A stretch of 37,532 nucleotides of DNA, taken from the IMG/VR virus record IMGVR_UViG_3300013233_000855, positions 1-37,532 of that record; one strand, 5' to 3'. The notes beneath the pieces were generated by a model. It worked only from the letters and a program-made list of their open reading frames with translations, made no database searches and was not told where the DNA came from. Both the position numbers and the translations under genes were made by a program. This DNA comes from a virus. This document shows, in pieces, positions 910 to 26,335 of the stretch. Position 1 is the first letter of the stretch, and each line of letters starts with the position of its first letter.

Positions 910-1170
910 ATGACAATCACGACCACAGAGAGCAGGCTAATCAGTCAGGCGGCGCAGACAGCGGGTATCAAGATAATTACCAGACACCCTCTCCCAGGCA
1001 CAGATAATAAGTACCTGGTGACGCTGGATGACGTGGGAGACCCGGCACAGGTGATGACGGCGTTCTTGGGGGCGCTGTTTGCGGCCGACCCTCAGGCCGT
1101 AGTAGCCGTAGGACGTGTTAAGGTAGATGCACAGACGTTTGCGGCCCGGATGCAGCAGACTAACCCTTAA
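910..1170 (+). CDS. Small protein of unknown function, first gene behind the strong promoter
   Basis: An 86-residue soluble protein. AAGGAGGAG at about 895 gives a very strong ribosome site for ATG 910. It begins with a Thr-rich stretch, followed by alternating hydrophobic and charged segments and no cysteine. It is the promoter-proximal gene of the unit driven from 839. No family is recognised. Small, highly expressed phage proteins in this position often act on host functions, but nothing in the sequence specifies which. Confidence 0.7.
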   Translation: MTITTTESRLISQAAQTAGIKIITRHPLPGTDNKYLVTLDDVGDPAQVMTAFLGALFAADPQAVVAVGRVKVDAQTFAARMQQTNP

Positions 1171-1266
1171 CCTTAACATTGTAGCTGTGGATTCTCGGGC
1201 CTGATATAACACACAACCCCCAAGCCCGGCGCTTGCACAGGCCGGGCACAAACGAGAGGAGATGCA

Positions 1267-1464
1267 ATGTATACACTAGCCAACACCTATCACAACACGA
1301 CGACCAAGACCAAGTACAGCCCTGACGAGAGAGAGCGCATCAACGAGGACATATATAACGGTGATGCGACGGACGCCGAGATACAGGCCCGGCGCAGAGC
1401 ACGGCGTGCCCTGTGCGGCATCACGGGTTGTACCTGCGGTAACGATTGGGGCGAGCGCGGCTAA
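1267..1464 (+). CDS. Small protein with C-terminal CxC-type cysteine cluster
   Basis: A 65-residue protein preceded by GAGAGGAG about six bases before ATG 1267. The first half is Thr/Asn/Tyr-rich and the middle is acidic then arginine-rich (QARRRARRALCG). The tail CGITGCTCGNDW has three cysteines within ten residues, suggesting metal binding or a disulphide. It is the second gene of the 839 unit. The 1171-1266 gap holds an imperfect CCCGGC/GCCGGG hairpin. No function is assigned. Confidence 0.65.
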   Translation: MYTLANTYHNTTTKTKYSPDERERINEDIYNGDATDAEIQARRRARRALCGITGCTCGNDWGERG

Positions 1465-1479
1465 GGAGCCCCCGCCGAA

Positions 1480-1498
1480 ACCGGGCCTCACGCCCGGT
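1480..1498 (+). other. Intercistronic hairpin
   Basis: ACCGGGC (1480-1486) and GCCCGGT (1492-1498) form a 7-bp stem with loop CTCAC. There is no T-tract, so it is more likely an mRNA-stabilising or processing hairpin than a terminator. It lies between the small genes at 1267 and 1562. Confidence 0.55.
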
Positions 1499-1561
1499 CT
1501 GCCGGAGATGGCCGCCCGGCACTGACGAGGCAGGCCGAGAACCTGAAAAAGGGAGGTAGAA

Positions 1562-1825
1562 ATGAAAAGCAAATACGCATGGATTACGGATTACGCCAGG
1601 GAGTTGGCCAGCGAGATAATCCCCGGTGAAATCACGTATCGGCGTTGTGCCCGCATGGGCGGACACCATGATAACCTTAGTGTTATCGTGTGTTATAAGG
1701 CCAATGATAACGGCCGCTGGAAATCACAAGGGGAGGTAGTATCGTTGATACCATCTTACATAGATACCCCTGATTTGTCGCGCGGGAGCATCCACAACAA
1801 AAGGGTTGCAGACATACCCAGATAA
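1562..1825 (+). CDS. Small protein of unknown function
   Basis: An 87-residue protein with GGGAGG positioned just before ATG 1562. It has two central cysteines (RRCARMGG and VIVCYKAND) and a pattern of short beta strands near residues 35-60. It has no TM segment or signal peptide. It lies in the same plus-strand series of well-initiated small genes as 910, 1267 and 1855. The function is not recognisable. Codon choice and ribosome site support it as a real gene. Confidence 0.65.
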   Translation: MKSKYAWITDYARELASEIIPGEITYRRCARMGGHHDNLSVIVCYKANDNGRWKSQGEVVSLIPSYIDTPDLSRGSIHNKRVADIPR

Positions 1826-1854
1826 CCCCTAACCTAACACGGAGGACGAGGACG

Positions 1855-2121
1855 ATGACAACTATAACGGCGTACAAAGTCACGACCACCAAAGCCTACA
1901 TGGCCGACGAGTGCGGCACGGGTTACAGCCTCACCCCGTGGGGACGCAATACTGCATATTATGAGGGCTACGACGAGCCCGTAACCGTAGAGCTCGCTGA
2001 CGACTGCGAGGTTGTGGACCACGATGGCATACCCATGATATCACGTCAGGGAGATGATTGCGTTATGTACCTGCGCGAGGCAATACTGATGGGATACGCT
2101 AAGGTGGTCGGCCATGAGTAA
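1855..2121 (+). CDS. Small acidic protein of unknown function
   Basis: An 88-residue acidic protein with CGGAGGACGAG ahead of ATG 1855. It is rich in Asp, Glu and Tyr and has four cysteines spread through the chain (ADECGTG, DDCEVVD, DDCVMYL). Its end overlaps the start of the next gene (ATG 2114) by eight bases, showing translational coupling. Small acidic phage proteins can mimic DNA or bind host regulators, but that is only a possibility here. No family is recognised. Confidence 0.65.
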   Translation: MTTITAYKVTTTKAYMADECGTGYSLTPWGRNTAYYEGYDEPVTVELADDCEVVDHDGIPMISRQGDDCVMYLREAILMGYAKVVGHE

Positions 2122-2419
2122 GCCCGTACTGACAATAGACCACCCCTCCAGTTCTTACGGCCTGCCCGTGCTCGTGATAGACGGGCAGGCATACGGACCG
2201 GCCGACGAGACCCCGCTCGGCCCGGCCGCCGAGGTGGTCCGCGCAACAAAGGGGCTGGACCCTGCGATGGTCGAGAGGTTTCTCGCCCCGCTGCCGCCCT
2301 ACCCGCCGGCGCGGCTCTGCTGCTACAGGTGCGGACACCGATGGCCGCCGCGTGGCGAGGACCGCCCACGGATCTGCCCCAAGTGTAAGAGCCCATACTG
2401 GGATCGGCCGAGGAAATGA
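2114..2419 (+). CDS. Small protein with C-terminal zinc ribbon
   Basis: A 101-residue protein. Residues 1-70 are Pro-rich and lack clear motifs. Residues about 75-97 form a zinc ribbon with CxxC knuckles: CCYRCGHRW followed by RICPKCKSPYWDRP. This is the rubredoxin-like knuckle arrangement common in small phage proteins that contact nucleic acid or RNA polymerase. It overlaps the upstream gene and is followed by the HTH gene at 2456, so it probably belongs to a regulatory pair. The exact role is unknown. Confidence 0.7.
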   Translation: MSKPVLTIDHPSSSYGLPVLVIDGQAYGPADETPLGPAAEVVRATKGLDPAMVERFLAPLPPYPPARLCCYRCGHRWPPRGEDRPRICPKCKSPYWDRPRK

Positions 2420-2455
2420 TTAAGCGAGCGGCCTCCATAACAAGGAGGACGGGTG

Positions 2456-2671
2456 ATGAGAACTAAAAAAACCGCCTATGTAGACATCTCCGATCGGCTC
2501 CGGTGGATCGAGGACCGCCTGTATGCGGGCAGTAAAATCAACTGCACGATAATCGCCAACGAGTTCGGGCTATCCATCAAAACGGCGCAGCGGAGCATCA
2601 ACCTGCTGCGCCGTTATTACGGCCTCAAAATCGAATACGACCCCGACACCAGGAGTTTTTTTCTCGCGTAG
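2456..2671 (+). CDS. Winged-helix/HTH regulator, possible excisionase-type or transcription factor
   Basis: A 71-residue protein that is almost entirely one DNA-binding domain: RLRWIEDRL, then CTIIANEFGLSIKTAQRSIN as a helix-turn-helix, then LLRRYYGLKIEYDPDTRSFFL as a wing. This is the HTH seen at the start of DeoR/WYL-type regulators, but without any effector domain. AAGGAGG at about 2440 favours ATG 2456 over GTG 2453. It lies immediately upstream of attP and the integrase, the usual place for a recombination directionality factor (Cox/Xis). It could equally be the regulator of the dyads at 849-875. Confidence 0.75.
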   Translation: MRTKKTAYVDISDRLRWIEDRLYAGSKINCTIIANEFGLSIKTAQRSINLLRRYYGLKIEYDPDTRSFFLA

Positions 2672-2694
2672 TCTATACAATAACCAAATCCAGT

Positions 2695-2723
2695 GCTTTC
2701 AGGTAGTGAAAGCGGCCGCTTTC
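2695..2723. repeat. Mutually exclusive palindromes near attP
   Basis: GAAAGCGGCCGCTTTC at 2708-2723 is a perfect 16-bp palindrome. Its left arm can also pair with GCTTTC at 2695-2700, giving an alternative hairpin with loop AGGTAGT. The element follows the HTH gene stop by about 25 bases and precedes the att region. It could be a weak terminator, a protein-binding site or an mRNA switch. The sequence does not decide between these. Confidence 0.7.
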
Positions 2724-2812
2724 CGCGAGCCTGGCATAGCCGGCAACCTACATAATACTTACACGGTTTTTATAACTATTTGTTTTTGCATCACAAAAGA
2801 GTCTCAAAACCG

Positions 2813-2859
2813 GACTCTTAATCAGCGGGCCGTAGGTTCGATCCCTACGCGGCCCACCA
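2813..2859 (+). other. attP: attP core: 3' half of tRNA-Lys(CTT)
   Basis: From GACTCTTAATC onward the sequence reads as the 3' part of a tRNA: anticodon loop CTCTTAA (anticodon CTT, Lys), 3' anticodon strand TCAGC, T-arm GTAGG/TTCGATC/CCTAC (2833-2849), acceptor strand GCGGCCC, discriminator A and CCA at 2857-2859. No D-arm or 5' acceptor strand exists upstream, and the bases before 2813 would break the anticodon stem. It is therefore not a functional tRNA but the identity segment that restores the host tRNA on integration. The integrase begins about 180 bases downstream. Confidence 0.9.
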
Positions 2860-2864
2860 AATTG

Positions 2865-2914
2865 AAAGCCCTTGATAGACATGATTATTCTTGTTTATCA
2901 AGGGCTTTTCTTTA
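2865..2914 (+). terminator. Terminator directly after the att core
   Basis: A 13-bp perfect stem AAAGCCCTTGATA (2865-2877) with TATCAAGGGCTTT (2896-2908) is followed by a T-rich run. It lies six bases after the tRNA CCA end. After integration it would serve as terminator for the rebuilt host tRNA gene. In the phage it insulates the integrase from upstream transcription. The A-rich left flank could allow bidirectional activity. Confidence 0.85.
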
Positions 2915-3036
2915 TTTAAATGCCGCTTGACCTTCTCCCGTAATTGCCCTATAATGCCCGCAAATACCCGCAGTAACACAGAAACAACTTACACTATACT
3001 TACATTCGCTCAAAAAATGTAAGTGGACCCCGGACA

Positions 3037-4110
3037 ATGGCATACATATACCGCAGAGGCAAGTACTGGTGGGTCGGGTTCACACAGGGTGGGCGGTGCA
3101 TACAGAAGTCCCTGAAGGTCACTTCCAAACCGGCCGCCCGGGTGCTGCTCGGAGAGTACCAGACGATCGAGGCGAGGTATTATAACCACTCTCATGCGCT
3201 CAGCATCAAGAAGAACATCGAGGAGATCGTCGAAGAGTACGCCGGGCTCAAGGCCCGGAAGAAGACTCAGAACTGGTACAAGTGGTGTGGCGGCAAGTTC
3301 GTGGACTTCTGCGAGGGGCTGGGCATAGAGAACATCGGCGACGTTTATGTCGATACGATAGACCGCTGGTATAACGAGTGCAAGAGAGCCGGCCGCGAGA
3401 GAGAGAAGAAGCTTCGGGAAGAAGACGAGGGGCGGCGGGTGCAGGCAGACCCGGGTGGCGCGGCATCCATGCTCCGAGGCATCAAGGCGATCTTCAACCA
3501 TGCCGTGAAGCGGCACTACATCACGGAGAGCCCGGCCCGGGACGTCAAGGCCGATAAGCCAACGAAGAAGATCTTCCGGGACCTCTCCTTTGAAGAGGTC
3601 GACAAGCTACTCGAAGAGGCCCGCAAGAAAGGCTCACCGTATTATGCGATGTTCGCTACGGCGTACTACGCCGGGCTCCGGGAGGGGGAGCTCATCTATC
3701 TTAAACCGGCCGACGTGGACTTTGAGCAGAACTACATCGATGTGAAGAGCAAGCCCGAGAACCTGATCAAGGACCACCAGGAGAGAAGGATCCCGCTGAA
3801 CGCCAAGCTAAAGAAGATATTAAAAAAACACAAGCCCGGAAGGAAGTGGATGTTCGAGACGTCGCCCGGGGCCCCGCGAAAGCATCACCTGACCCGTGAG
3901 CTCCGCAGGGCCGGGACCTGGGCTGAGATCGAGACGAGGGGGCTCAATATGAGGGTCCTGCGCGAGACCTTCGGCTCGCATCTCAGGCGCCGCGGCGTGG
4001 ACCTGGCGCTCATTAGCGAGTACATGGGGCACTCGTCGGTCGACGTGACGCGCCGGCACTACGCGCATATCCGGCTCGAGCAGACGCGCAAGGAGATTGA
4101 CAAGCTATAG
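3037..4110 (+). CDS. int: Tyrosine recombinase (phage integrase)
   Basis: A 357-residue site-specific recombinase catalysing attP x attB strand exchange through a 3'-phosphotyrosyl intermediate. Residues 1-60 form an AP2-like arm-binding domain (YRRGKYWWVGF). A core-binding SAM-like domain follows at about 60-170, and the catalytic domain occupies 180-357. Catalytic residues visible are R215 (AGLREGE), R309 (RVLRETF), H332 (MGHSS) and nucleophile Y342 (RRHYAH). The His of the usual HxxR box is replaced by R306. It sits beside the tRNA-type attP. Its stop abuts the convergent minus-strand stop at 4105, with CTATAG shared and no terminator between. Confidence 0.95.
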   Translation: MAYIYRRGKYWWVGFTQGGRCIQKSLKVTSKPAARVLLGEYQTIEARYYNHSHALSIKKNIEEIVEEYAGLKARKKTQNWYKWCGGKFVDFCEGLGIENIGDVYVDTIDRWYNECKRAGREREKKLREEDEGRRVQADPGGAASMLRGIKAIFNHAVKRHYITESPARDVKADKPTKKIFRDLSFEEVDKLLEEARKKGSPYYAMFATAYYAGLREGELIYLKPADVDFEQNYIDVKSKPENLIKDHQERRIPLNAKLKKILKKHKPGRKWMFETSPGAPRKHHLTRELRRAGTWAEIETRGLNMRVLRETFGSHLRRRGVDLALISEYMGHSSVDVTRRHYAHIRLEQTRKEIDKL

Positions 4111-9108: not shown

Positions 9109-9392
9109 AAAGAAACCGGACATACCTGCGTTTCGAGTGCGGCGCGCGGCTACCGGAGAAAGGGTTTCTCGTAGAGCCTTACCGCGAGCACGCCCGCAAA
9201 ATATACCGCAGGGCCAGGAAGGACGGGAGATATAGGATTATAGTCTGGGGGCGAGGTCCTCGACGAGATATACGATATGATTTTCTCCAAGGAGCTCAGG
9301 ATACCGGAGGGGTTCACGAAGTGACGTGCAGGGCGTTCGTCATAATGTATAAGGAGTTCGTATGTATCAGGAGATCGATATCAAAAAGCTGA
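9105..9392 (+). CDS. Small protein with probable frameshift at a G5 run
   Basis: The open frame gives 95 residues, but its end runs 31 bases into the ParB gene and reads like non-coding sequence after residue 49. Removing one G from the run at 9247-9251 gives a continuous, natural-looking ending, GEVLDEIYDMIFSKELRIPEG, with a TGA at 9322-9324, before the ParB ribosome site. The ancestral gene was therefore probably 9105-9324, about 72 residues. The extra G is either a real mutation or a sequencing error. N-terminal part: RTYLRFECGARLPEKGFLVE. Function unknown. Confidence 0.6.
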   Translation: MKRNRTYLRFECGARLPEKGFLVEPYREHARKIYRRARKDGRYRIIVWGRGPRRDIRYDFLQGAQDTGGVHEVTCRAFVIMYKEFVCIRRSISKS

Positions 9393-11122
9393 GGCCCTCG
9401 GGGCTCAACTACAGGAAGAGCATGGACAAGCAGGCGCTCGAGGAGCTCACGGCCTCGGTCAGGGCAAAGGGGGTCTTGCAGCCGGTCCTTGTCAGGCCGC
9501 TGGGCGGCAAGGGCAAGGCCAAGGGCAAGGGTAAGGCCAACGGCCAGACGCACGAGATCGTGGCCGGGCACAGACGTTTTACCGCGGCCAGGGCCGCGGG
9601 GCTCAAGGTCCTGCCGGCCATCGTCAGGGACCTCGACGACGAGACGGCGCTCGAGATCCAGGTGATCGAGAACAGCCAGCGCGAAGACCCCAACCCCATG
9701 GACGAGGCCCACGGCTTCAAGCGGCTCATCAAGATGGGTAAACACACGCCCGAGACCCTGGCGCAGAAGATAGACCACTCGAAGCGCTACGTGCTCGAGC
9801 GGCTGCGGCTCCTCGACCTGCCGAAGGCCGCCCGCGAGAAGGTCGCCGCCGGGGATCTCCCGCTCGGCTCCGCCCTCCTCATAACGCGCATAAAAGGCGA
9901 AAAGGAGCAGGGCGAGTTCCTCGACCACGTGCTCCACGGCGAATACGGCAACGGCATGACGATCAAGGACGCGAGGCAGCTCCTGCGGCAGGACTACATC
10001 CTTGACCTCTCCAGCGCGCCCTTTTCCACATCGGGGTGCAATGCCTGCCCCCTTCGGTCCATAAACCAGATAGACCTCTTTCCCGAGCTGAAGGACAGCG
10101 ACGAGTGCACGGACAGGGATTGCTACAGGAAGAAGACGATCGAGTTCTACGAGGAGATGCTCGCCGAGAAGGCCAACGAAGGGTTCAAGATCGTAAGGAC
10201 CGCGCAGAAGGTCAGGAGCAACCAGAAGATATCGGCCACCACGGACTCCTGGGACGAGGTGAAGCCGAAGAGGTATAAGTCCGCATGCACGAAGTGCCTC
10301 GACAACCACGCCTGGTATTTCTATGAGGAATACGGAAGGATACACTTCGGCGAGATATGCCTGGACAAGAAGTGCCTGAACAAGATGAACGCGCCGAAGG
10401 GCAAGGCCGGGGAGGCCCATGGCGTCTCGAGCATGTCCCACCAGGACGCGGCGCTCGAGAAGATGCGCCGCGCCGAGCGGGCCTCGAAGTGCCGCGACAG
10501 GTGGCTGAGGCGCAAGCTCGCCCCGAGGGTCGCGTGCTCGGGCACGCTCCAGAGGAGGCTCGCGCTCCGGGCGATCATGCACGACACCTACCACTGCCGC
10601 GGGGCGGTCGTGAAGCTCCTCACCGACGAGAAGCTCCCGCTCGGCAGGTTCGAGAAGCAGGGAGAGGTGTACATTGGCGACGAGTACGAGCTGGCGTTGC
10701 TGGTCCCTGAGCTGCTGCTCGACAGGGCCATAAGAGCGGCCCTGGTCGCCTCAATCGAGCATCTCCACGGCGAAGACGTGCTCCTCAAGATGATGGACGA
10801 GGCCGGGCTCGACCCGGAGCGGGACTTCGAGCTCGACAGGGAATACGTAACCTCGCAGAGCTTCAGGACGAAGGGAGACCTCCAGGCGCTGGCCCGCGAG
10901 CTCGGCATCGACGGCGCGAGCACGCTCCCCAAGGACGCCCTCATCGACAAGATACTGGCGGGCCCCATCCTCGGGCGGATGCCCGGGGAGCTGAAGGCGG
11001 CGTTCAGTCCCGAGTGGCAGTGCCGCGTCTGCGGGGCCGAGGAGAAGGAGAAGTGCGTTTGCCATTACGCCCCCTGCCCCTCCTGTGGCGACGACCCGGA
11101 GATCTGCGGGTGCAAGCCGTGA
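9362..11122 (+). CDS. ParB-domain protein with zinc-binding C-terminal region
   Basis: A 586-residue protein; AAGGAG at 9350-9355 supports ATG 9362. Residues 1-110 are a ParB/Spo0J-type N-terminal domain with the arginine box AGHRRFTAA and the IVRDLDDETALEIQVIENSQRED segment, interrupted by a Lys/Gly repeat insert (GGKGKAKGKGKANGQ). An HTH-like region follows (TPETLAQKIDHSKRYVLERL). Cysteine groups occur in the middle (GCNACPL, CTDRDC, ACTKCLDN, CLDKKCL) and at the end (CRVCGAEEKEKCVC, CPSCGDDPEICGC). Roles in DNA partition or in handling phage DNA are both possible. No ParA partner is present. Confidence 0.85.
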   Translation: MYQEIDIKKLRPSGLNYRKSMDKQALEELTASVRAKGVLQPVLVRPLGGKGKAKGKGKANGQTHEIVAGHRRFTAARAAGLKVLPAIVRDLDDETALEIQVIENSQREDPNPMDEAHGFKRLIKMGKHTPETLAQKIDHSKRYVLERLRLLDLPKAAREKVAAGDLPLGSALLITRIKGEKEQGEFLDHVLHGEYGNGMTIKDARQLLRQDYILDLSSAPFSTSGCNACPLRSINQIDLFPELKDSDECTDRDCYRKKTIEFYEEMLAEKANEGFKIVRTAQKVRSNQKISATTDSWDEVKPKRYKSACTKCLDNHAWYFYEEYGRIHFGEICLDKKCLNKMNAPKGKAGEAHGVSSMSHQDAALEKMRRAERASKCRDRWLRRKLAPRVACSGTLQRRLALRAIMHDTYHCRGAVVKLLTDEKLPLGRFEKQGEVYIGDEYELALLVPELLLDRAIRAALVASIEHLHGEDVLLKMMDEAGLDPERDFELDREYVTSQSFRTKGDLQALARELGIDGASTLPKDALIDKILAGPILGRMPGELKAAFSPEWQCRVCGAEEKEKCVCHYAPCPSCGDDPEICGCKP

Positions 11123-16488: not shown

Positions 16489-17856
16489 ATGACAAAGCGA
16501 GGAAAAAAACAGACCATGAAACTCTCCGACCTGAAACCCGCCGAGTACAACCCGCGCAAGATGTCGCGCAAGCAACTCGAGAGGCTCCGCAAGTCCCTCG
16601 ACGAGTTCGGCGACCTCTCCGGCATCATCTACAACCGGCGCACGGGCAACCTTATCGGTGGGCACCAACGGGTCAAGGCCCTACCTCTCCATGCCGAGAT
16701 ATTGTGCGACCGGCTCGCCGGTCCCTCCAGGGCCGGCACGGTCTCGACCGGCGTCGTAACGGTCGAAGGCGAGACCTACTCCTACCGGGAGGTCGACTGG
16801 CCCGTAGAGCGTGAGAAGCTCGCCAACATCGCGGCGAACAAGCACACAGGCGAATGGGACGACGAGAAGCTGACTGAGATAATGGAGGAGCTCTCGGCCC
16901 TGCCGGACTTCGACCTTGACCTCACGGGCTTTACCGACCGGGAACTGGAGGCGCTACTTGATACGGTCATAGAGGACGACTTCGACGCGGAGAAGGAGTA
17001 CGGGAAGATAGTCGAGCCCCGCACCCGCCGCGGCGACGTCTACCAGCTCGGCCCGCATCGTCTCATGTGCGGCGACAGCAGGGCCGCGGCCGACGCCGCG
17101 GTACTGATGGGCGGAGAGAAGGCACGGCTCGTCTTCACCGACCCGCCCTACAACGTGGACTACAAAAGCCCGTCCAGCCTGAGTTACGACTCGAAGAAGT
17201 ACGGCGGCTCGGGCGGCAAGATATTCAACGACAATCTGAGCGACGACGAGTGCGTGAAGCTCTACACCGAGGTCCTCAGGAACCTCTACACTCACACCAT
17301 GGACGACGCGGCCATCTACTGGTGGTTCGCCTCCCGGAACCACCATCTGAACCACGCCGCCTTCGCGGCCGCGCGGTGGCACATGAGCCAGGTCATCATC
17401 TGGCTCAAGAACTCGATGATATTCGCGCGCGGCCAGGACTACCACAGGCAGTACGAACCCTGCATGGTGGGCTGGAAGAAGGGGAAGAGGCACTATACGA
17501 GCAGGCACATAAGGAACTACAAGGACGTCTTCAACCTGGACTTCGACGACTTCGTCGAGATGCTCGACGTCTGGTACGAGCGGAGGGACGCGACCACCGG
17601 ATACATGCACCCCACGCAGAAGCCCGTGAGGCTCGCCGAGCGGGCGCTCAAGAAGAACAGCGAGCCGGGCGACGTCGTTCTCGACCTCTTCGGTGGGTCG
17701 GGGTCCACCCTCATTGCGTGCGATCAGATGAGCCGGAGGGCGTGCCTCATGGAGCTCGACCCGAAGTACTGCGACGTCATCGTCACCAGGTACGTCAAAT
17801 TCACAGGCAACAAACAGATCGTCTTCAACGGGAAGAAGAAAAACTGGAGAATTTAA
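16489..17856 (+). CDS. ParB-domain fused to N4/N6 DNA methyltransferase
   Basis: A 455-residue protein. Residues about 10-120 form a ParB-like nuclease domain (LSDLKPAEYNPRKMSRKQ, then NLIGGHQRVKA). The rest is an amino-methyltransferase with catalytic motif DPPY at 218-221 followed later by the AdoMet motif FGGSGS at 401-406, the beta-class order. HPTQKPVRLAERAL is the usual flanking motif. It should methylate exocyclic N6-adenine or N4-cytosine on phage DNA. A second ATG at 16516 is possible. There is no restriction partner, so it is an orphan methylase, probably protective or regulatory. Confidence 0.92.
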   Translation: MTKRGKKQTMKLSDLKPAEYNPRKMSRKQLERLRKSLDEFGDLSGIIYNRRTGNLIGGHQRVKALPLHAEILCDRLAGPSRAGTVSTGVVTVEGETYSYREVDWPVEREKLANIAANKHTGEWDDEKLTEIMEELSALPDFDLDLTGFTDRELEALLDTVIEDDFDAEKEYGKIVEPRTRRGDVYQLGPHRLMCGDSRAAADAAVLMGGEKARLVFTDPPYNVDYKSPSSLSYDSKKYGGSGGKIFNDNLSDDECVKLYTEVLRNLYTHTMDDAAIYWWFASRNHHLNHAAFAAARWHMSQVIIWLKNSMIFARGQDYHRQYEPCMVGWKKGKRHYTSRHIRNYKDVFNLDFDDFVEMLDVWYERRDATTGYMHPTQKPVRLAERALKKNSEPGDVVLDLFGGSGSTLIACDQMSRRACLMELDPKYCDVIVTRYVKFTGNKQIVFNGKKKNWRI

Positions 17857-18863: not shown

Positions 18864-19018
18864 GAAAGATGCTGATCGGGACAATAACTGTCGTACTGAC
18901 TGTCGCGGCGACCTACGGTGCCTACTGGATTGCCAAGACCGTGAGCTATAAAGTCTTCTACAAAGACATGGTAAGGGAAACCATTCACGAGATGGTAAAG
19001 AAAAGCGCACTAAGATGA
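18860..19018 (+). CDS. Tiny membrane protein between terminase genes
   Basis: A 52-residue protein from GTG 18860, overlapping the small-terminase stop (ATG 18869 is an alternative). One TM segment is seen at about 4-24 (MLIGTITVVLTVAATYGAYWIA), followed by a charged helix (YKDMVRETIHEMVKKS). It overlaps the large-terminase start by four bases. A membrane peptide between terminase subunits is unusual. No function is assigned. Confidence 0.65.
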   Translation: MRKMLIGTITVVLTVAATYGAYWIAKTVSYKVFYKDMVRETIHEMVKKSALR

Positions 19019-20949
19019 ACACCGCCGAGCAGACATCCATGTTCACCACGGTCCGTTTCTTTCCGGAAGAGCGCGAGGTCTTCAGGAAGAAGGCGCGCCT
19101 CAGGGCCTCCGAGTGGGCCGAGGCTCGGCGCTGGGTAACCATGGGGGCGCACGTGGGCCCGTGGCGGAACGACATCTCGCCGCATCTGGTCTTCATCATG
19201 GACACCTTCGACCTGCCCCACGTGCGCGAGGGCGTCATCTGCGGCTCGCCGCAGACCGGAAAGACCGAGACGCCCTACAACCTGTTCGGGAAAGCGAAGG
19301 AGTACGACCCGTCGACCATGATGGCGATAATGCCGTCCCAGGCCAAGGCGCGCGCCGTCGCCGAGGACCGGCTGATACCCATGATCAGGCAGAGCCCGGG
19401 CCTCAGGCACCTCGTCTCCGACAACCCGGACGACACGGCCAAGCAGCGGGTGAAGCTCCGTAACGGCGCCATCCTGTACATGGCCTGGGCCAACTCGGCC
19501 GACGCGCTCGCCGGCTGGCCGATAAAATACCTGCTCTTCGACGAGTGCGACAAGTACCCTCCCACTGTTGGCAAGGAGACCGACCCGATAACCCTCGGTG
19601 AGAAACGCGTGAGGACGTTCCCGCACACACACAAGATATTCAAGGTCTCTACGCCGACGCGCGAGGATGGCCCGATATGGCAGGCCCTAAAACGCTGCGA
19701 CGTGGAGTACCACTACTTCGCCCGCTGTCCGTCGTGCGGCGAGGAGCAGGCCTTCAAGCTCGACCAGCTCAGGTTCGACGAGAAGGCCGCGCCCGAAACC
19801 ATACGCCGCGAGCACTCGGCCCGCTACGAGTGCGAGGAGTGCGGCGAGCTCTGGACCGACAGGGCGCGCGACCGCGCCGTGCGCGCCGGCCGATGGAAGA
19901 GGGTGCGCGGCAAGGACATCCTTCGCCCCAGGGCCGTGGGCTTCCACCTGCCGAGCTGGGTATCGAGCGACGTCTCGCTCTCCGAGATAGCCGCGGCCTG
20001 GGTGGTGGCGAAGAAGAACAAGGTCAAGCTCATCGACTTCTACAACGACTACCTGGCCGAGCCCTACATCGAGAGCGAGGAAGGCGAGAGCGTGGACTAC
20101 GAGGTCCTCTATGAACGCCGCTACAACTACGCCCCCGAGGACGCGGATTGGCAGGTGCCCATGGCCGCGTGCGTGCTCACGGCCGCCGCCGACATACAGA
20201 AGAACCGCATCGAGGCCGAGGTCGTGGCCTGGGGGCCGGGTCTCGAGTCCTGGGGCATAGAGCACCGCGTTTTTCCTGGCGACACTTCTTCTAAGGACAA
20301 CCCGGTGTGGAAGGACTTTGACGCATGGAGGCGGGGGAACGAGTGGACGCACGAGAGCGGCGTGCGCCTGAGGATCGTCACCTGCGGGATAGATTCCGGA
20401 TACCGCGCCCCGGAGGTGTATCGTTACGTGCGGGGTAAACAGGGGGCCCGGGTCTACGCGACGAAGGGGTCGAGCGCCAGGGGCAAGCCGCTCCTCTCGA
20501 TTCCTTCGGCGAAGGCCGCGAAGAAGGCGCTGAAGGACCGCTACCGCGTAGTGCTCATAACCATCGGGACCGAGGCCGCCAAGGATATGATCCACGAGTG
20601 GCTGCAACTGAAAGAGCCAGGGCCCGGGTACATGCACTATCACAAGGGTTACGGCCTCGACTATTTCAGGCAGTTGACGGCCGAGCACGCGATAACTAAG
20701 TACGACGCCAGGGGCCGCCCCTACCGCGTGTGGGAGCCGAAGCACCGTGACTCACGCAACGAGGCCCTCGACCTGCGCGTCGGGAACTACGCCATGGTCG
20801 AGCTCCTGAACCCGAATTTCGAGGTCCTCGCCGAGGGCCTCAGGAGACAGGCAGTGGAGAGAAAGGAGGCGCAGAAGGATGAAAAGGACGACAGGGCTGG
20901 GCGACGCGATAAGCCGCGCCGCAGAAAGGGATTTGTGCATGACTGGTAA
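19015..20949 (+). CDS. terL: Terminase large subunit, GpA family
   Basis: A 644-residue packaging motor and nuclease. The ATPase has Walker A GSPQTGKT at 77-84 (K83) and Walker B LLFDECD with D176-E177. A zinc ribbon (RCPSCGEEQ...YECEECGELW, about 238-280) interrupts the chain, as in lambda gpA relatives. The C-terminal nuclease region starts at TAAADIQKNRIEAEVVAWGPG. It docks on the portal and cuts at cos-type ends. A helical Lys/Arg tail (RRDKPRRRKGFVH) ends it. The length is typical of the family, and the order TerS-TerL-connector-portal-protease-capsid is lambda-like. Confidence 0.95.
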   Translation: MNTAEQTSMFTTVRFFPEEREVFRKKARLRASEWAEARRWVTMGAHVGPWRNDISPHLVFIMDTFDLPHVREGVICGSPQTGKTETPYNLFGKAKEYDPSTMMAIMPSQAKARAVAEDRLIPMIRQSPGLRHLVSDNPDDTAKQRVKLRNGAILYMAWANSADALAGWPIKYLLFDECDKYPPTVGKETDPITLGEKRVRTFPHTHKIFKVSTPTREDGPIWQALKRCDVEYHYFARCPSCGEEQAFKLDQLRFDEKAAPETIRREHSARYECEECGELWTDRARDRAVRAGRWKRVRGKDILRPRAVGFHLPSWVSSDVSLSEIAAAWVVAKKNKVKLIDFYNDYLAEPYIESEEGESVDYEVLYERRYNYAPEDADWQVPMAACVLTAAADIQKNRIEAEVVAWGPGLESWGIEHRVFPGDTSSKDNPVWKDFDAWRRGNEWTHESGVRLRIVTCGIDSGYRAPEVYRYVRGKQGARVYATKGSSARGKPLLSIPSAKAAKKALKDRYRVVLITIGTEAAKDMIHEWLQLKEPGPGYMHYHKGYGLDYFRQLTAEHAITKYDARGRPYRVWEPKHRDSRNEALDLRVGNYAMVELLNPNFEVLAEGLRRQAVERKEAQKDEKDDRAGRRDKPRRRKGFVHDW

Positions 20950-21250: not shown

Positions 21251-21808
21251 ATGGTCGACATCCCCACCACCGAGCCTGCGGAGATAATCGCCGGCGACAC
21301 GCTCAAGTGGAAGCGCGAGGACCTCTCGGCTGATTACCCGGCGAGCTCGTGGACGCTCACTTATGAGCTCCGGGGGCCACAGCAGATAACCATCACCGCC
21401 ACGGCCGACGGCGACGACTTCAGCGTCAGTGTGGGGACCTCCACGACGGCAGGCTGGACGGCCGGCGACTACTGGTGGGCGGCCTACGTCTCGGACGGCA
21501 CGGACCGTTACCGGGTCGACGGCGGGACTCTCACCATAAAGCCCGACCTCGCGACCACGGGCGCCGTCTACGACGGGCGCTCGCACGCCAAGAAGGTCCT
21601 CGACGCAATAGAGGCGGTCATCGAGGGCCGCGCGAGCAAGGACCAGATGAGCTACACCATAGCCGGCCGGTCGCTCGCACGCACCCCGATAGCGGATCTT
21701 CTCAGGCTCCGGGATAGCTACAAGGCCGAATACAAGGCCGAGCAGAAGGCCGAGAAGATAGACCGCGGGGTCAAGACCGGCGACAAGATATTGACGAGGT
21801 TCGTATGA
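21251..21808 (+). CDS. Putative head-tail connector-type protein (gpW position)
   Basis: A 185-residue protein. The first 100 residues are an Ig-like/beta domain (DTLKWKREDLSADYPASSW to RVDGGTLTIKP). The C-terminal 80 are helical with the segment MSYTIAGRSLARTPIADLLRLRD, which resembles gpW-like head-completion sequences. It lies exactly between terminase and portal, where lambda has gpW, and overlaps the portal start by four bases. The helical part is taken as the connector, the beta part as an extra domain. Both assignments are moderate. Confidence 0.55.
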   Translation: MVDIPTTEPAEIIAGDTLKWKREDLSADYPASSWTLTYELRGPQQITITATADGDDFSVSVGTSTTAGWTAGDYWWAAYVSDGTDRYRVDGGTLTIKPDLATTGAVYDGRSHAKKVLDAIEAVIEGRASKDQMSYTIAGRSLARTPIADLLRLRDSYKAEYKAEQKAEKIDRGVKTGDKILTRFV

Positions 21809-23250
21809 GTCTGTTCCGGAGGATAATCGGCCGTAGGAGCCGTAGGACCAGGGCGCCACGCGCCAACTACGTCGGCGCGACAAAGGACCGTCTCACCGCG
21901 GACTGGCTCACCTCGAACAAGACCGCCGACGAGATACTCCGGATGCAGCTCCGCACGCTCCGGGAGCGGAGCCGCGACCTCGCGCGCAACAACGATTACG
22001 TCCGCAAGTTCATGCGCCTCCTCAAGGCGAACGTCGTCGGCCCCCGGGGGATACGGGTCCAGAACAGGGCCAGGCAGGAGGACGGGTCGTTCGACGTCGC
22101 AGCCAACGAGACGATCGAGAAGGCCTTCCGCGCGTGGAAGAAGAGGGGGAGCGCGTCGGTCTGCGGCAGGAAATCCTGGCTCGACATCCAGAACCTCGTA
22201 ATAGAGAGTGTCGCCCGCGACGGCGAGGCCCTCGTCTACGAGGCCCGGGGCAACAGGCACAACCGTTTCAGCTATGCGCTCCAGGTGCTTGAACCCGACC
22301 TCCTGAACGAGGACTACAACCGCGAGCTCCCGAGCGGCAACCGCATCAGGATGGGGATAGAGTTCGACTCCTACGACAGGGCCGTGGCCTTTCACCTCCT
22401 GACGAAGCACCCCGGCGAGTACTCCTACACCTGGTCCGGGCAGAGATACAGGACCATCCCGGCAAGCGACATCATACACGTCTATATCGAGGAGAGGGCG
22501 ACACAGTCGAGGGGCGTGCCATGGACCCACACGGCCATAATCAGGCTCCGGATGCTCGGCGGTTATGAGGAGGCTGAGCTCGTGGCATCAAGAATAGCGG
22601 CCTCGAAGATGGGTTTTTACCAACAGAGGGAAGGGGCGGCGGAATACACCGGCGACGGCAAGGACGCCGACGGGAACGTCATAACCGAGATCTCGCCCGG
22701 GGCGTGGGAGAAGCTCCCTCCCGGCTACGAGGTGGCGACCTTCGACCCGAGCCACCCTTCAGGCACGTTCGAGCACTTTGTCAAAGCCGTGCTCCGGGGC
22801 GCGAGCGCCGGCATGGGCCCTGGGTACAACACCCTGGCATCGGATCTGGAGGGAGTCAACTACTCGAGCCTCCGCCACGGCGCGCTCGAGGAGCGGGACT
22901 TCTACCGCACAATACAGGCGTGGTTCATCGAGGCCTTCTGCGAGAGGGTCTACGAGAGCTGGCTTTCGATGGCGCTTCTCACCGGCGCCGTGCCGTTAAG
23001 ATACGCGGACTTCGACAGGCTCCACGCCCCGAAGTTCGGCCCCAGGGGCTGGGATTGGGTGGACCCGCTGAAGGAAGTCAAGGCCGACATTGAGGCCGTC
23101 AACGCCGGGCTCTCGTCCAGGCAGCGGGTGCTCGACAAGCGCGGCTACGACTTTGAGGACATAGTCGATGAGCTGGCATATGAACAGCAGTATGCGCAGG
23201 AAAAAGGAGTAACCCTCTCTATTGATACAAAAAAACGGCAAGGAGGTTAA
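21805..23250 (+). CDS. Portal protein, lambda gpB family
   Basis: A 481-residue portal forming the dodecameric DNA channel at one head vertex. NNDYVRKFMRLLKANVVGPRG near residues 54-74 and the later VPWTHTAIIRLRMLGGYEEAELVASRIAASKMGF region are typical of lambda-type portals, as is NTLASDLEGVNYSSLRHGALEERD near 345-368. The length is close to lambda gpB (533). It is coupled to the gene before it and overlaps the protease-capsid start by one base. Confidence 0.93.
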   Translation: MSLFRRIIGRRSRRTRAPRANYVGATKDRLTADWLTSNKTADEILRMQLRTLRERSRDLARNNDYVRKFMRLLKANVVGPRGIRVQNRARQEDGSFDVAANETIEKAFRAWKKRGSASVCGRKSWLDIQNLVIESVARDGEALVYEARGNRHNRFSYALQVLEPDLLNEDYNRELPSGNRIRMGIEFDSYDRAVAFHLLTKHPGEYSYTWSGQRYRTIPASDIIHVYIEERATQSRGVPWTHTAIIRLRMLGGYEEAELVASRIAASKMGFYQQREGAAEYTGDGKDADGNVITEISPGAWEKLPPGYEVATFDPSHPSGTFEHFVKAVLRGASAGMGPGYNTLASDLEGVNYSSLRHGALEERDFYRTIQAWFIEAFCERVYESWLSMALLTGAVPLRYADFDRLHAPKFGPRGWDWVDPLKEVKADIEAVNAGLSSRQRVLDKRGYDFEDIVDELAYEQQYAQEKGVTLSIDTKKRQGG

Positions 23251-25400
23251 TGATGTTAATAAAGGCGGTCAGGGATAGATCCTGGTACAGGATACAGGCG
23301 AAAGGGACGAGCGAGGCTGATGTCTACATTTACGACGAGATAGGACTGTGGGGCATAAAGGCCGAGGAGTTCGTCAAGGACATCAACGCCCTCGCCGTCG
23401 ACCGGATAAACCTCAGGCTCAACACTCCCGGGGGGGGCGTATTCGACGGCTTCGCGATATACAACGCCCTCAGGTCGCACAGGGCCGAGGTCATAACCCA
23501 CATCGATGGCCTCGCCGCCTCCATCGGCAGCGTGGTAGCGCTTGCCGGCGACACTGTCAATATCGCGCAGAACGCATTCTTTATGATTCATAATCCGCAC
23601 GCCCTGGTGCTGGGTGAGTCGAAGGACATGCGGAAGATGGCCGACACCCTCGACAAGATAGCCGGCGCCATCGTCAGGACCTATGCCGACAAGTCCGGCA
23701 AGAGCGAAGAAGAGATACAGCAGATCATGAATAAGGAGACATGGTTCAATGCCGACGAGGCGAAGGAAGCGGGGTTTGCTGACAACGTAACAGAGACGCG
23801 CGAGGTGAAGGCGCGGTTCGATTTGAGCGCCTTTGCCCGCGTACCGAAGGAGCTCATCGAGAGCGTATCACACGACACGCCTACGGAGCGCGAGCTCGAG
23901 AGGACCCTGCGGGAGGCAGGGGGCTTGAGCCGCGCCGCCGCAAAGGCGGTCATGGCGAGGGGATACAAGGCCCTCTCCGGAGACCGGCGGGAGGCCGGCG
24001 CCGGGGGTCAGCGGGAGGCTGACGTCGGAGAAAACACAACAGCAAAAGGAGGAAAAAAAGAAATGAACAAATGTATACACTGCGGCACCGAACTGGCCGA
24101 AGGTGCGATTTGTCAGTGCGAAGGCGCGAGAGCGGCCAGAACTGCCGGACAGATAGACGTCAAAGCCGCAACGATAAAGGCCGCTGAGGAGGCCGGTAAA
24201 GCCGAGAGAGAGCGGGTTTCCGAGATAATGGCCATCGCCGAGGCGCACGACTGCGCCGAACTCGGCAGGCAGTATATCCAGGGCGGCCAGACCATGGACG
24301 AGTTCAGGGCCGCTGTCCTCGAGCAGAAGTATAAAGGGACCCCGGTCACACAGTCTCCCGAGATAGGGATGAGCGCGAAGGAGAAGAATCGGTTCTCGAT
24401 CGTGCGCGTGATAAACGCGATATCCGAATTCAAGCCGCTCGACGGGCTCGAGAAGGAGGCGTCCGACGCGGTGGCGAAGATCTGCGGCCGTCAGCCCAAG
24501 GGTTTTTTCATTCCGTACGATGTCATGACTTACGACATACGGGCCGACCTCTCGGCCGGAGATGCGACCAAGGGCGGTTACACCATCGGCACCGAAGTCC
24601 TTGCGGGCTCGATGATCGAGCTCCTGCGAAATAAGATGCTCATATCCCGGCTCGGGGCAACGCAGCTCGGCGGCCTCATAGGGAACATTACCATACCAAG
24701 GGTTACCGGCGGGGGCACGGCTTATTGGCTGCCTGAGACCGGTGCGGTCACCAAGAGTGACCAGGCCTTCGGGCAGCTCGGGCTCACGCCCCACAAGCTC
24801 GCGGCGGATACGGCCTACAGCAAGGAGCTCGTCATGCAGAGCTCGATAGACGTCGAGGCCTTCGTGCGTAACGACCTGATGAGGGTGCTTGCCATCGAAA
24901 AGGACCGTGCGGCCCTCGACGGATCCGGCTCGGCCGGCGAGCCTGTGGGCATACTCAACACCACAGGCATAAAGACCGTCACCTTCGGCGGCGCGGCCAC
25001 GTGGGCCAACGTCGTGGACTTCGAGACGCAGATCGCCGACGCCAACGCGGATGTCGATGCCATGAGTTACCTGACCACCCCCGCGGTCCGCGGCAAGTGG
25101 AAGACCGCGGTCAAGGTCACTAATCAGGCCGTATTCCTCTGGGAGAGGGGCTCCGAGAGGGGCGTCGGAGAGGTCAACGGCTATCCTGCCTACGCGACCA
25201 AGCAGGTCCCCTCGGACAAGGTCGTTTTTGGCAACTGGGCGGACTTGATAATCGCTGACTGGGCCGGGGTGGACGTGGTCGTGGACCCCTACTCGCTCAA
25301 GAAGAACGGGCAGATAGAGGTCACGATCAACATGTGGACCGACATAGGCGTTCGGCACGCCGTGAGTTTCTGCGCGTCCACGGACAGCGGAGCGCAGTAA
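23250..25400 (+). CDS. ClpP-like head-maturation protease fused to HK97-fold major capsid protein
   Basis: A 716-residue open frame (AGGAGG at 23241-23246 fits ATG 23253 better than 23250). Residues 1-185 are a ClpP/S14-type protease: S91 in GLAASIGS, H114 in MIHNPH, ending EAGFADN. Residues 190-270 are a charged linker. From M272 the chain has a zinc knuckle (CIHCGTELAEGAICQC), a helical delta-like segment, then from about 425 an HK97-fold capsid protein (GYTIGTEVLAGSMIELLRNK; ALDGSGSAGEPVGILNTTG). No stop separates the two. A strong ribosome site ahead of M272 would also make capsid alone. Autocleavage of the fusion is inferred. Confidence 0.9.
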   Translation: MMLIKAVRDRSWYRIQAKGTSEADVYIYDEIGLWGIKAEEFVKDINALAVDRINLRLNTPGGGVFDGFAIYNALRSHRAEVITHIDGLAASIGSVVALAGDTVNIAQNAFFMIHNPHALVLGESKDMRKMADTLDKIAGAIVRTYADKSGKSEEEIQQIMNKETWFNADEAKEAGFADNVTETREVKARFDLSAFARVPKELIESVSHDTPTERELERTLREAGGLSRAAAKAVMARGYKALSGDRREAGAGGQREADVGENTTAKGGKKEMNKCIHCGTELAEGAICQCEGARAARTAGQIDVKAATIKAAEEAGKAERERVSEIMAIAEAHDCAELGRQYIQGGQTMDEFRAAVLEQKYKGTPVTQSPEIGMSAKEKNRFSIVRVINAISEFKPLDGLEKEASDAVAKICGRQPKGFFIPYDVMTYDIRADLSAGDATKGGYTIGTEVLAGSMIELLRNKMLISRLGATQLGGLIGNITIPRVTGGGTAYWLPETGAVTKSDQAFGQLGLTPHKLAADTAYSKELVMQSSIDVEAFVRNDLMRVLAIEKDRAALDGSGSAGEPVGILNTTGIKTVTFGGAATWANVVDFETQIADANADVDAMSYLTTPAVRGKWKTAVKVTNQAVFLWERGSERGVGEVNGYPAYATKQVPSDKVVFGNWADLIIADWAGVDVVVDPYSLKKNGQIEVTINMWTDIGVRHAVSFCASTDSGAQ
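24047..24065 (+). promoter_or_regulatory. Internal ribosome binding site for separate capsid protein
   Basis: AGGAGG at 24047-24052 lies ten bases before an in-frame ATG at 24063-24065 (residue 272 of the fusion). The A-rich spacer keeps the site unstructured. Initiation here gives a 445-residue protein that starts with a zinc knuckle and contains the whole capsid domain. Confidence 0.8.
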
Positions 25401-25404
25401 GACA

Positions 25405-25587
25405 ATGAAGGTCCGGATACTCAAAAACACCTCGGTCAAGGGGGAGCCCTGCTCCCCCGGCGAGGTGAAGAATCTCGACGATGCCGACGCAGGGGTTCTC
25501 ATCTCGTATCAGATGGCCGAGCCCGTAGTGGTGGAGGAGCCGCCATCCATGGAGAAGACAACGCTAAAAAGAAAAAGGAGGAAATAG
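25405..25587 (+). CDS. Small head-associated protein
   Basis: A 60-residue protein starting five bases after the capsid stop. MKVRILKNTSVKGEPCSPGEVKNLDDADAG is the familiar beta-barrel-like pattern of small proteins encoded just after the capsid gene in many siphoviruses. The tail is Pro/Glu then Lys/Arg-rich. A head-completion or decoration accessory role is inferred from position and pattern. It has no good ribosome site and may be coupled to capsid translation. Confidence 0.65.
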   Translation: MKVRILKNTSVKGEPCSPGEVKNLDDADAGVLISYQMAEPVVVEEPPSMEKTTLKRKRRK

Positions 25588-25590
25588 ACG

Positions 25591-25971
25591 ATGGGCATGA
25601 TCATAGACCTTCAGAACGAGCTTAACGAGCTCAGCCTGCTCGCCGACACGTACACTGCGAGCGTGAACGGCAGCGGCGTGGACCTGCAGGGCTACCAGGG
25701 CAAGCTCAAGGTGATGCTGAACAGCGGCGCAGGCGGCGGCGCGGACCACTCTCTCGACGTCAAGCTCCAGGAGTCGGCCGACAACGCCGCGTGGAGCGAC
25801 ATAAGCGGCGCGGCCTTTACACAGGTCACCAACGCCGGGGCCTCGTTGCAGTCCTTGGCCGTGGACACGAGGGGCGTCAAGCGCTACATCCGCGCGGTGG
25901 CCACCATAGCCGGAACGTCGCCGAGCTTCGGCTTCGCCGTGACGGCCGTCGGACAGAAGCAGATAAGGTAG
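25591..25971 (+). CDS. Head decoration or stabilisation-type protein
   Basis: A 126-residue protein with GGAGG just before ATG 25591. The chain is beta-rich (LQGYQGKLKVMLNSG; HSLDVKLQESADNAAWSDISG; RYIRAVATIAGTSPSFGFAVTAV), a jelly-roll-like pattern common in proteins placed after the capsid gene. A decoration or minor-head role is likely from place and structure, but no exact family is named. Confidence 0.6.
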   Translation: MGMIIDLQNELNELSLLADTYTASVNGSGVDLQGYQGKLKVMLNSGAGGGADHSLDVKLQESADNAAWSDISGAAFTQVTNAGASLQSLAVDTRGVKRYIRAVATIAGTSPSFGFAVTAVGQKQIR

Positions 25972-25989
25972 GCAGATAAGACAGGGGAT

Positions 25990-26013
25990 GGGGAGGACCT
26001 CCGGGTCCTCCCC
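25990..26013 (+). other. Strong hairpin between head genes
   Basis: GGGGAGGACC (25990-25999) and GGTCCTCCCC (26004-26013) form a perfect 10-bp stem with the stable-type tetraloop TCCG. There is no T-tract. It lies in the 52-base gap before ATG 26024, which lacks a ribosome site. It may be an RNA-processing or stability element that sets the ratio of head to tail products. Confidence 0.7.
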
Positions 26014-26023
26014 ACTACAAACA

Positions 26024-26335
26024 ATGGCCTTCGATTACATAGCCGACCTCTCCGAGTTCATGGATGAGACTGATGGTTTCGGCGAGGCCGCCACGCTCAT
26101 CGACAAGGACAAGGCGATAACCACGATCAGCGTTATCTTCGACCCGGAGAACCTCTACGTCGACCCCGAGACCGGCGCGACCGAGAACGCGGGGCCGATA
26201 GCCTGGGCGAAGAGTGCGGACGTGGAGGATGCAAAGCATAAGGACATCCTTGAGATCGACGGCACGGAGTATGAGATCAAAGGAATCAAGCCCGACGGCT
26301 CGGGCCTGACAGCCCTGATACTCGGCAAAACATGA
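26024..26335 (+). CDS. Head-tail joining-type protein
   Basis: A 103-residue protein from ATG 26024; an earlier ATG at 25988 would translate through the hairpin and is less likely. It is acidic and beta-rich (TTISVIFDPENLYVDPETGA; GTEYEIKGIKPDGSGLTALIL), the pattern of gpFII-like head-tail joining proteins. It overlaps the next gene start (ATGA). The gene order capsid-small-decoration-this-terminator-tube supports the role. Confidence 0.65.
   Translation: MAFDYIADLSEFMDETDGFGEAATLIDKDKAITTISVIFDPENLYVDPETGATENAGPIAWAKSADVEDAKHKDILEIDGTEYEIKGIKPDGSGLTALILGKT

Follow-up and report, generated by a model that had tools for sequence, protein, structure and literature searches.

A candidate second translation start within a phage protease-capsid gene and its counterparts in other protease-capsid fusions

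A phage that encodes its head protease and its major capsid protein in a single gene faces a problem, in that the prohead needs few proteases and not one for each shell subunit. Such a gene is present in the virus record IMGVR_UViG_3300013233_000855 of IMG/VR, a linear record of 37,532 bases that we analysed over its full length (the window), and the question is how it might deliver both products. An earlier note, made from the sequence alone, had proposed that a start inside the reading frame makes a second, protease-free form of the capsid protein.

The gene lies in a lambda-like head module, after terminase gpA (19015-20949), a head-tail joining protein (21251-21808) and a lambda-family portal (21805-23250), and ahead of an FII-like head-tail attachment protein (25988-26335). 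The gap between capsid and head-tail attachment genes holds two small ORFs (25405-25587 and 25591-25971) that belong to phrogs of unknown function, the second of which weakly matches a tail protein family; these could be head decoration or closure proteins. The record also carries an integrase (3037-4110) and looks temperate, and a ParB-domain protein with a Rho_N-like stretch (9362-11122) and an N6/N4 DNA methylase (16489-17856) adjoin its replication genes.

The fusion gene and its two candidate starts

The ORF at 23250..25400 (plus strand, 716 aa) has no internal stop and joins an S14 ClpP-like protease, a linker, a delta (scaffold) domain and an HK97-fold major capsid protein, confirming the earlier reading of protease and capsid in one frame. 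Pfam matches cover both ends: residues 10-183 match CLP_protease (PF00574, E 4e-34; protease domain at 23277..23798) and residues 442-708 match Phage_capsid (PF05065, E 1e-37). The protease is thus of the S14 family, and no S78 match was found in it; the capsid belongs to PF05065/phrog_617, not PF25209, and is homologous to the capsids of VP882, R4C and PPpW-3. Ser91 (23520-23522), His114 (23589-23591) and Glu163 (23736-23738) are invariant in 13 S14 relatives and form the putative catalytic triad by comparison with ClpP motifs. The protease C-terminal tail or linker (residues 217-271, 23898..24062) is without a conserved domain.

The full-length fusion has a Shine-Dalgarno (SD) sequence, AGGAGG, at 23241..23246. 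The earlier note had started the fusion at the ATG at 23250; the ORF stands, but the start is better placed 3 nt downstream at 23253, the likely initiation codon, with a 6-nt spacer and an SD duplex energy of -12.1 kcal/mol. A second AGGAGG, read from the sequence and found in the SD analysis, occurs after the protease at 24047..24052, followed by a run of seven A (24053..24059) and an in-frame ATG (24063..24065) that is Met272 of the fusion. This ribosome-binding site and start are as the note described them, except that the spacing, which it called ideal, is 10 nt and slightly longer than that. At -11.6 kcal/mol the internal SD is as strong as the upstream one.

Such sites are uncommon in the window, where 146 in-frame internal ATGs in 25 genes include 11 with an SD match of at least 5 nt and, leaving aside the one at 23253 that is likely the true fusion start, only one other with a 7-nt match. 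The internal site is also among the most open in the ORF: it ranks 6th of 710 positions, with a 60-nt minimum free energy (MFE) of -0.9 where the ORF averages -17.3, and has a GC content of 38% against 61%. We infer from the sequence that the window's phage uses this start, and the internal start is very probably functional; comparable starts stand just after the protease in the fusions described below.

Relatives of the two halves and the A7 run

The position of the A7 run between the internal SD and the start raises the question of whether the fusion is genuine. If the run at 24053-24059 were really A6, or were A6 in the majority of the population, the protease would end at TGA 24064-24066 in an ATGA overlap, no fusion would be made, and the capsid would have its own gene, beginning at 24063 and translationally coupled to that of the protease. 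The protease would then be 270 aa long and end in KGGKKK exactly at the ATGA, and the S14 relative with the best E-value (L004) has just such an overlap with a PF05065 capsid (2667-2682). Among S14 protease relatives in viral contigs, which fall into several groups, about 40 loci keep the protease separate from the PF05065 capsid and nine are fused to PF25209; the nearest S14 relatives that adjoin PF05065 capsids are separate genes. In phage PAN70 the homologous protease-capsid gene (1011-3091) is annotated as disrupted by a homopolymer deletion; long protease-capsid ORFs are easily broken by indels.

The relatives of the capsid give a different picture from those of the protease. Of 94 loci of the capsid family, 84 carry the capsid as a fusion to an S78 protease, four have separate genes, four have no protease seen (two of these are cut by contig ends) and one, a distant case, has a separate S14 gene; the remaining locus is the window, alone in this set in joining S14 to a PF05065 capsid. 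The named S78 fusions are those of VP882, PPpW-3, Persinger, Murka, PT1, Mica and Alexa; R4C, RcCronus and S-CBS1 were assigned to S78 by a custom S78 profile only. We therefore rejected the argument that so rare a fusion must be an error. The earlier note had held that homologues with a stop between the two parts would mark this ORF as a read error, and S14 homologues beside PF05065 capsids do have such stops, but the capsid's own homologues are fused, so that separate S14 genes elsewhere do not make the window a read error. The closest comparison at the junction is an S78 fusion (L101), which is nearly the same there (GGGAGGAAAAAGAAATG) and has the same Cys-rich start (MHKCEHCKRDLQEGEVCSC) and an SD; it is fused with A5 instead of A7. 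The terminase and portal of the window's record match their Pfam models over the full length without a break, and in short-read assemblies a run of seven bases seldom carries an indel in the consensus, which, should this record be such an assembly, also weighs against an indel. No second copy of the window phage, in which the run could be compared, came up in a search for the exact junction pattern that allowed A-runs of any length, and no close relatives turned up when viral contigs were searched with just the capsid. Taken together, we consider an indel unlikely and the fusion probably genuine.

The run could also matter in another way. Ribosomal frameshifting or RNA polymerase slippage at A7 might set the product ratio, with slipped products giving free protease and unslipped ones the fusion: A_AAA_AAA lies in frame directly after the SD, and a +1 shift reaches TGA 24064. 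Programmed slippage is disfavoured because the run is not conserved, being A5 in L101 and lacking in a second fusion (L095), whereas the SD and the Met are. The SD is moreover nearly adjacent to the run, unlike the stimulator of the dnaX frameshift, an SD that is spaced from the slippery run. This explanation is highly improbable.

The two halves of the window's gene, as judged from their relatives, differ in history; it looks as though one protease module had replaced another ahead of a delta-capsid unit that stayed conserved. Two further PF05065 capsid ORFs, of 786 and 650 aa (L098:2439-4796 and L099:2808-4757), have N-terminal regions of about 200 aa that match no protease model; these may be diverged proteases, or proteases of another kind, joined to the same capsid.

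The probable internal start in other protease-capsid fusions

The search for the same internal site in other fusions was positive, both in S78/PF05065 and in S14/PF25209 fusions, which are largely independent collections. The first set comprises 85 loci, with 40 representatives at 60% identity. An ATG occurs within about 60 codons after the protease in 39 of the 40 representatives, and the remaining one (L131), which lacks a linker ATG, has a GTG preceded by AAGGAG. The aligned internal Met is nearly invariant, although the surrounding linkers can hardly be aligned. An SD of at least 4 nt precedes a linker ATG in 29 of the 40 representatives, or 30 with the window, whereas synonymous shuffles of this set lead one to expect 19.1 +/- 2.5 such sites, with a maximum of 25 in 300 shuffles. 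The fixed 60-codon search range left out Met272 of the window, which has a longer protease tail; later analyses included it. Within the linkers, an SD stands before 33 of 64 ATGs compared with 316 of 2576 other codons (OR 7.6, p 9e-14), and outside the linkers of the same ORFs there is no association between SD and ATG (OR 1.17, p 0.32).

The internal starts have further signs of initiation sites. Local RNA structure is weak there, with a mean MFE of -4.8 against an ORF mean of -10.7, and compared with other parts of the linker the sites fold 5.5 kcal more weakly (p 9e-10). The mean SD energy is -7.3 at internal starts and -6.1 at upstream ones, so that the internal SDs are the stronger on average (p 0.02, n 38), and both kinds of start are equally open. 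About a quarter of the S78 representatives have the Met and lack the SD; whether these come from phages that use SDs little was examined in their other genes, where the lower SD use (0.26 vs 0.42, p 0.17) is a trend only.

The second set, S14 fused to PF25209, comprises 89 loci and 17 representatives, and all 89 loci have an SD-ATG after the protease (at M220 in MD8 and M211 in mEp213), with an odds ratio of 9.4 in linkers and 0.97 elsewhere. In some of these fusions the SD coincides with codons for a conserved peptide motif, and for this reason we examined codon choice. The G of AGGA comes from a Glu or Gln codon, and in 35 of 35 non-redundant sequences this codon has G as its last base, against a background of 55%; Glu in the SD is encoded by GAG in 28 of 28 cases, against 39%. 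Relatedness makes the raw probabilities optimistic, and the bias still holds in 15 of 15 sequences at an 80% identity cut-off. By this comparison of codons, the SD is held by synonymous codon choice, a constraint at the nucleotide and not the protein level. In one group (L182-L254), Lys at codon -8 before the internal Met is encoded by AAA in 33 of 33 sequences, at the 99.7th percentile of synonymous conservation, and this codon is possibly a component of the initiation region. The notion that SD-like motifs are a by-product of Glu/Lys-rich linkers was ruled out by the comparison of ATG with non-ATG codons within linkers, by synonymous shuffling and by the codon constraint.

These results bear on the simplest reading of such genes, in which every capsid protein would be made as the 716-aa fusion, the protease would be present 1:1 with the shell and cleave itself off, and the internal SD and ATG would be a relic or due to chance. 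One continuous ORF with a strong upstream SD accords with this, as does the absence of an SD at the linker Met of some fusions such as that of S-CBS1, and annotators and the authors of the MD8 description (PMC8508860) treat such genes as having one product. Against it, the SD-ATG is conserved in linkers that otherwise cannot be aligned and is under synonymous constraint, and a relic would decay across fusions that are only 30-45% identical. Space in the prohead is a further consideration. The shell subunit number reported for R4C is 415 (PMC10276861), and in a rough crowding estimate, which takes an assumed inner radius, 415 full-length subunits would fill about two thirds of an HK97-sized T=7 prohead with protease and delta, compared with about a quarter for delta alone. 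The estimate favours a minority of fusions among the products. We consider a single product quite unlikely, and two products the better explanation.

Proposed products and comparison with known systems

We think it likely that translation of this protease-scaffold-capsid ORF starts at two places, and that its products are the fusion and a delta-capsid, which co-assemble and are cleaved near residue 171 of the short form. The computed basis for this consists of the domains, the stop-free ORF, the internal site, the fact that related fusions conserve that site and constrain it at the nucleotide level, and how long the mature R4C chain is. Initiation at 23253 (or 23250) would give a protease-delta-capsid fusion of about 715 aa, and initiation at 24063 from the AGGAGG at 24047 a delta-capsid of 445 aa, the short form. 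The two would assemble together through their delta and capsid domains, so that a subset of shell subunits would carry the S14 protease covalently into the prohead. The protease would then cut near residue 171 of the short form, so that delta and the protease are both broken down and a shell subunit of about 275 aa remains. Of the earlier proposal, a second start making delta-capsid beside the fusion is supported by the comparison with relatives. Its statement that few fusions and many free capsids are probably made finds no such backing in the window, where the upstream and internal SDs are equal and the product ratio consequently cannot be read from the sequence.

The expected fate of the delta region (24063..24572, short-form residues 1-170, predicted to be mostly helical) rests on R4C. 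The R4C fusion has 629 aa, and its deposited mature chain (8gta) consists of residues 362-629 and aligns from short-form residue 171 of the window, consistent with a mature shell that lacks both protease and delta. The note's suggestion that the start of the capsid may be removed during maturation would fit this. An AlphaFold2 model of the short form has a helical region (residues 18-156), a low-confidence hinge and an HK97 fold, and its best structure match is 8gta (E 5e-22). The hinge, residues 158-180 (24534..24602), is predicted to be disordered and surrounds the expected cleavage point. The capsid core that follows (24573..25400) is the expected mature shell protein, on the Pfam match, the structure match and the R4C alignment. 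The short form begins with a Cys motif, CxxC-x9-CxC (24072..24119, residues 4-19), which had been called a zinc knuckle; the cysteines are there and the motif is zinc-ribbon-like, but the resemblance falls far below the Pfam cut-off (14.1 vs 25 bits). Such an N-terminus was found in 2 of about 94 capsids, the window and L101 (L101:3501-3560). It is possibly a transient zinc-binding assembly element, and it would be lost along with delta.

Single genes for protease, scaffold and capsid have been published (MD8 gp5), and what appears to be new is the conserved second start; the interest lies more in its conservation across unrelated fusions than in the window alone. None of the literature searched, mostly open-access papers, was found to describe an internal start for such fusions. 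Recurrence of the second start in distantly related phages suggests, from sequence comparison, a general way to put only some protease copies into each head. We regard it as reasonably probable that independently formed fusions (S78 with PF05065, S14 with PF25209, and the window's S14 with PF05065) all keep a start between protease and scaffold-capsid, that dual initiation is a general, selected way to load limited numbers of covalent proteases into proheads, and that the delta-capsid unit with its start is an exchangeable module that accepts different protease families. A conserved second start would explain why different proteases precede the same capsid, and would let a single gene solve the stoichiometric problem without a separate scaffold. 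Two proteins would then come from many genes now annotated as a single "major capsid protein", with the true start of the shell protein hidden inside.

HK97 has the same capsid fold as the window; its delta domain acts as scaffold, the protease lies inside the prohead, and delta is removed. The HK97 protease (gp4) and delta-capsid (gp5) are, however, separate genes, and the protease is packaged non-covalently. For lambda, Shaw and Murialdo (as cited in PMC8508860) reportedly described in 1980 (C/Nu3) an internal in-frame start in the head-protease gene that yields scaffold without protease for use in assembly. The window resembles lambda in having an internal in-frame start with a ribosome-binding site after the protease, and in the order of its head module, but the second product of lambda, Nu3, is scaffold alone, with the capsid protein gpE encoded by a separate gene, whereas that of the window would be scaffold plus capsid. 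A paper on an Stx2 phage proved to have no bearing on the question, as that phage has a P22-type capsid and no protease. In the S78 and PF05065 fusions (VP882, R4C, RcCronus, PPpW-3, Persinger, PT1, Alexa) the capsid is 33-40% identical to that of the window and likewise fused, with an aligned Met and often an SD; the S78 protease is unrelated in sequence to S14, and the same delta-capsid unit lies behind it. The paper on roseophage R4C does not mention a protease (PMC10276861). Pseudomonas phage MD8 gp5 is a single gene for protease, scaffold and capsid (PMC8508860), and its description does not mention an internal start. Like the window, MD8 gp5 and its counterparts in F10, JBD68 and coliphages mEp213 and mEp043 have an S14 protease, a scaffold and a capsid of HK97 type encoded by a single ORF that follows the portal, and the window too has a helical scaffold or delta between protease and capsid. 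The MD8 capsid is of PF25209 and that of the window of PF05065; judged by sequence, the window falls within a wider protease-scaffold-capsid architecture, yet is not homologous to MD8 gp5 throughout.
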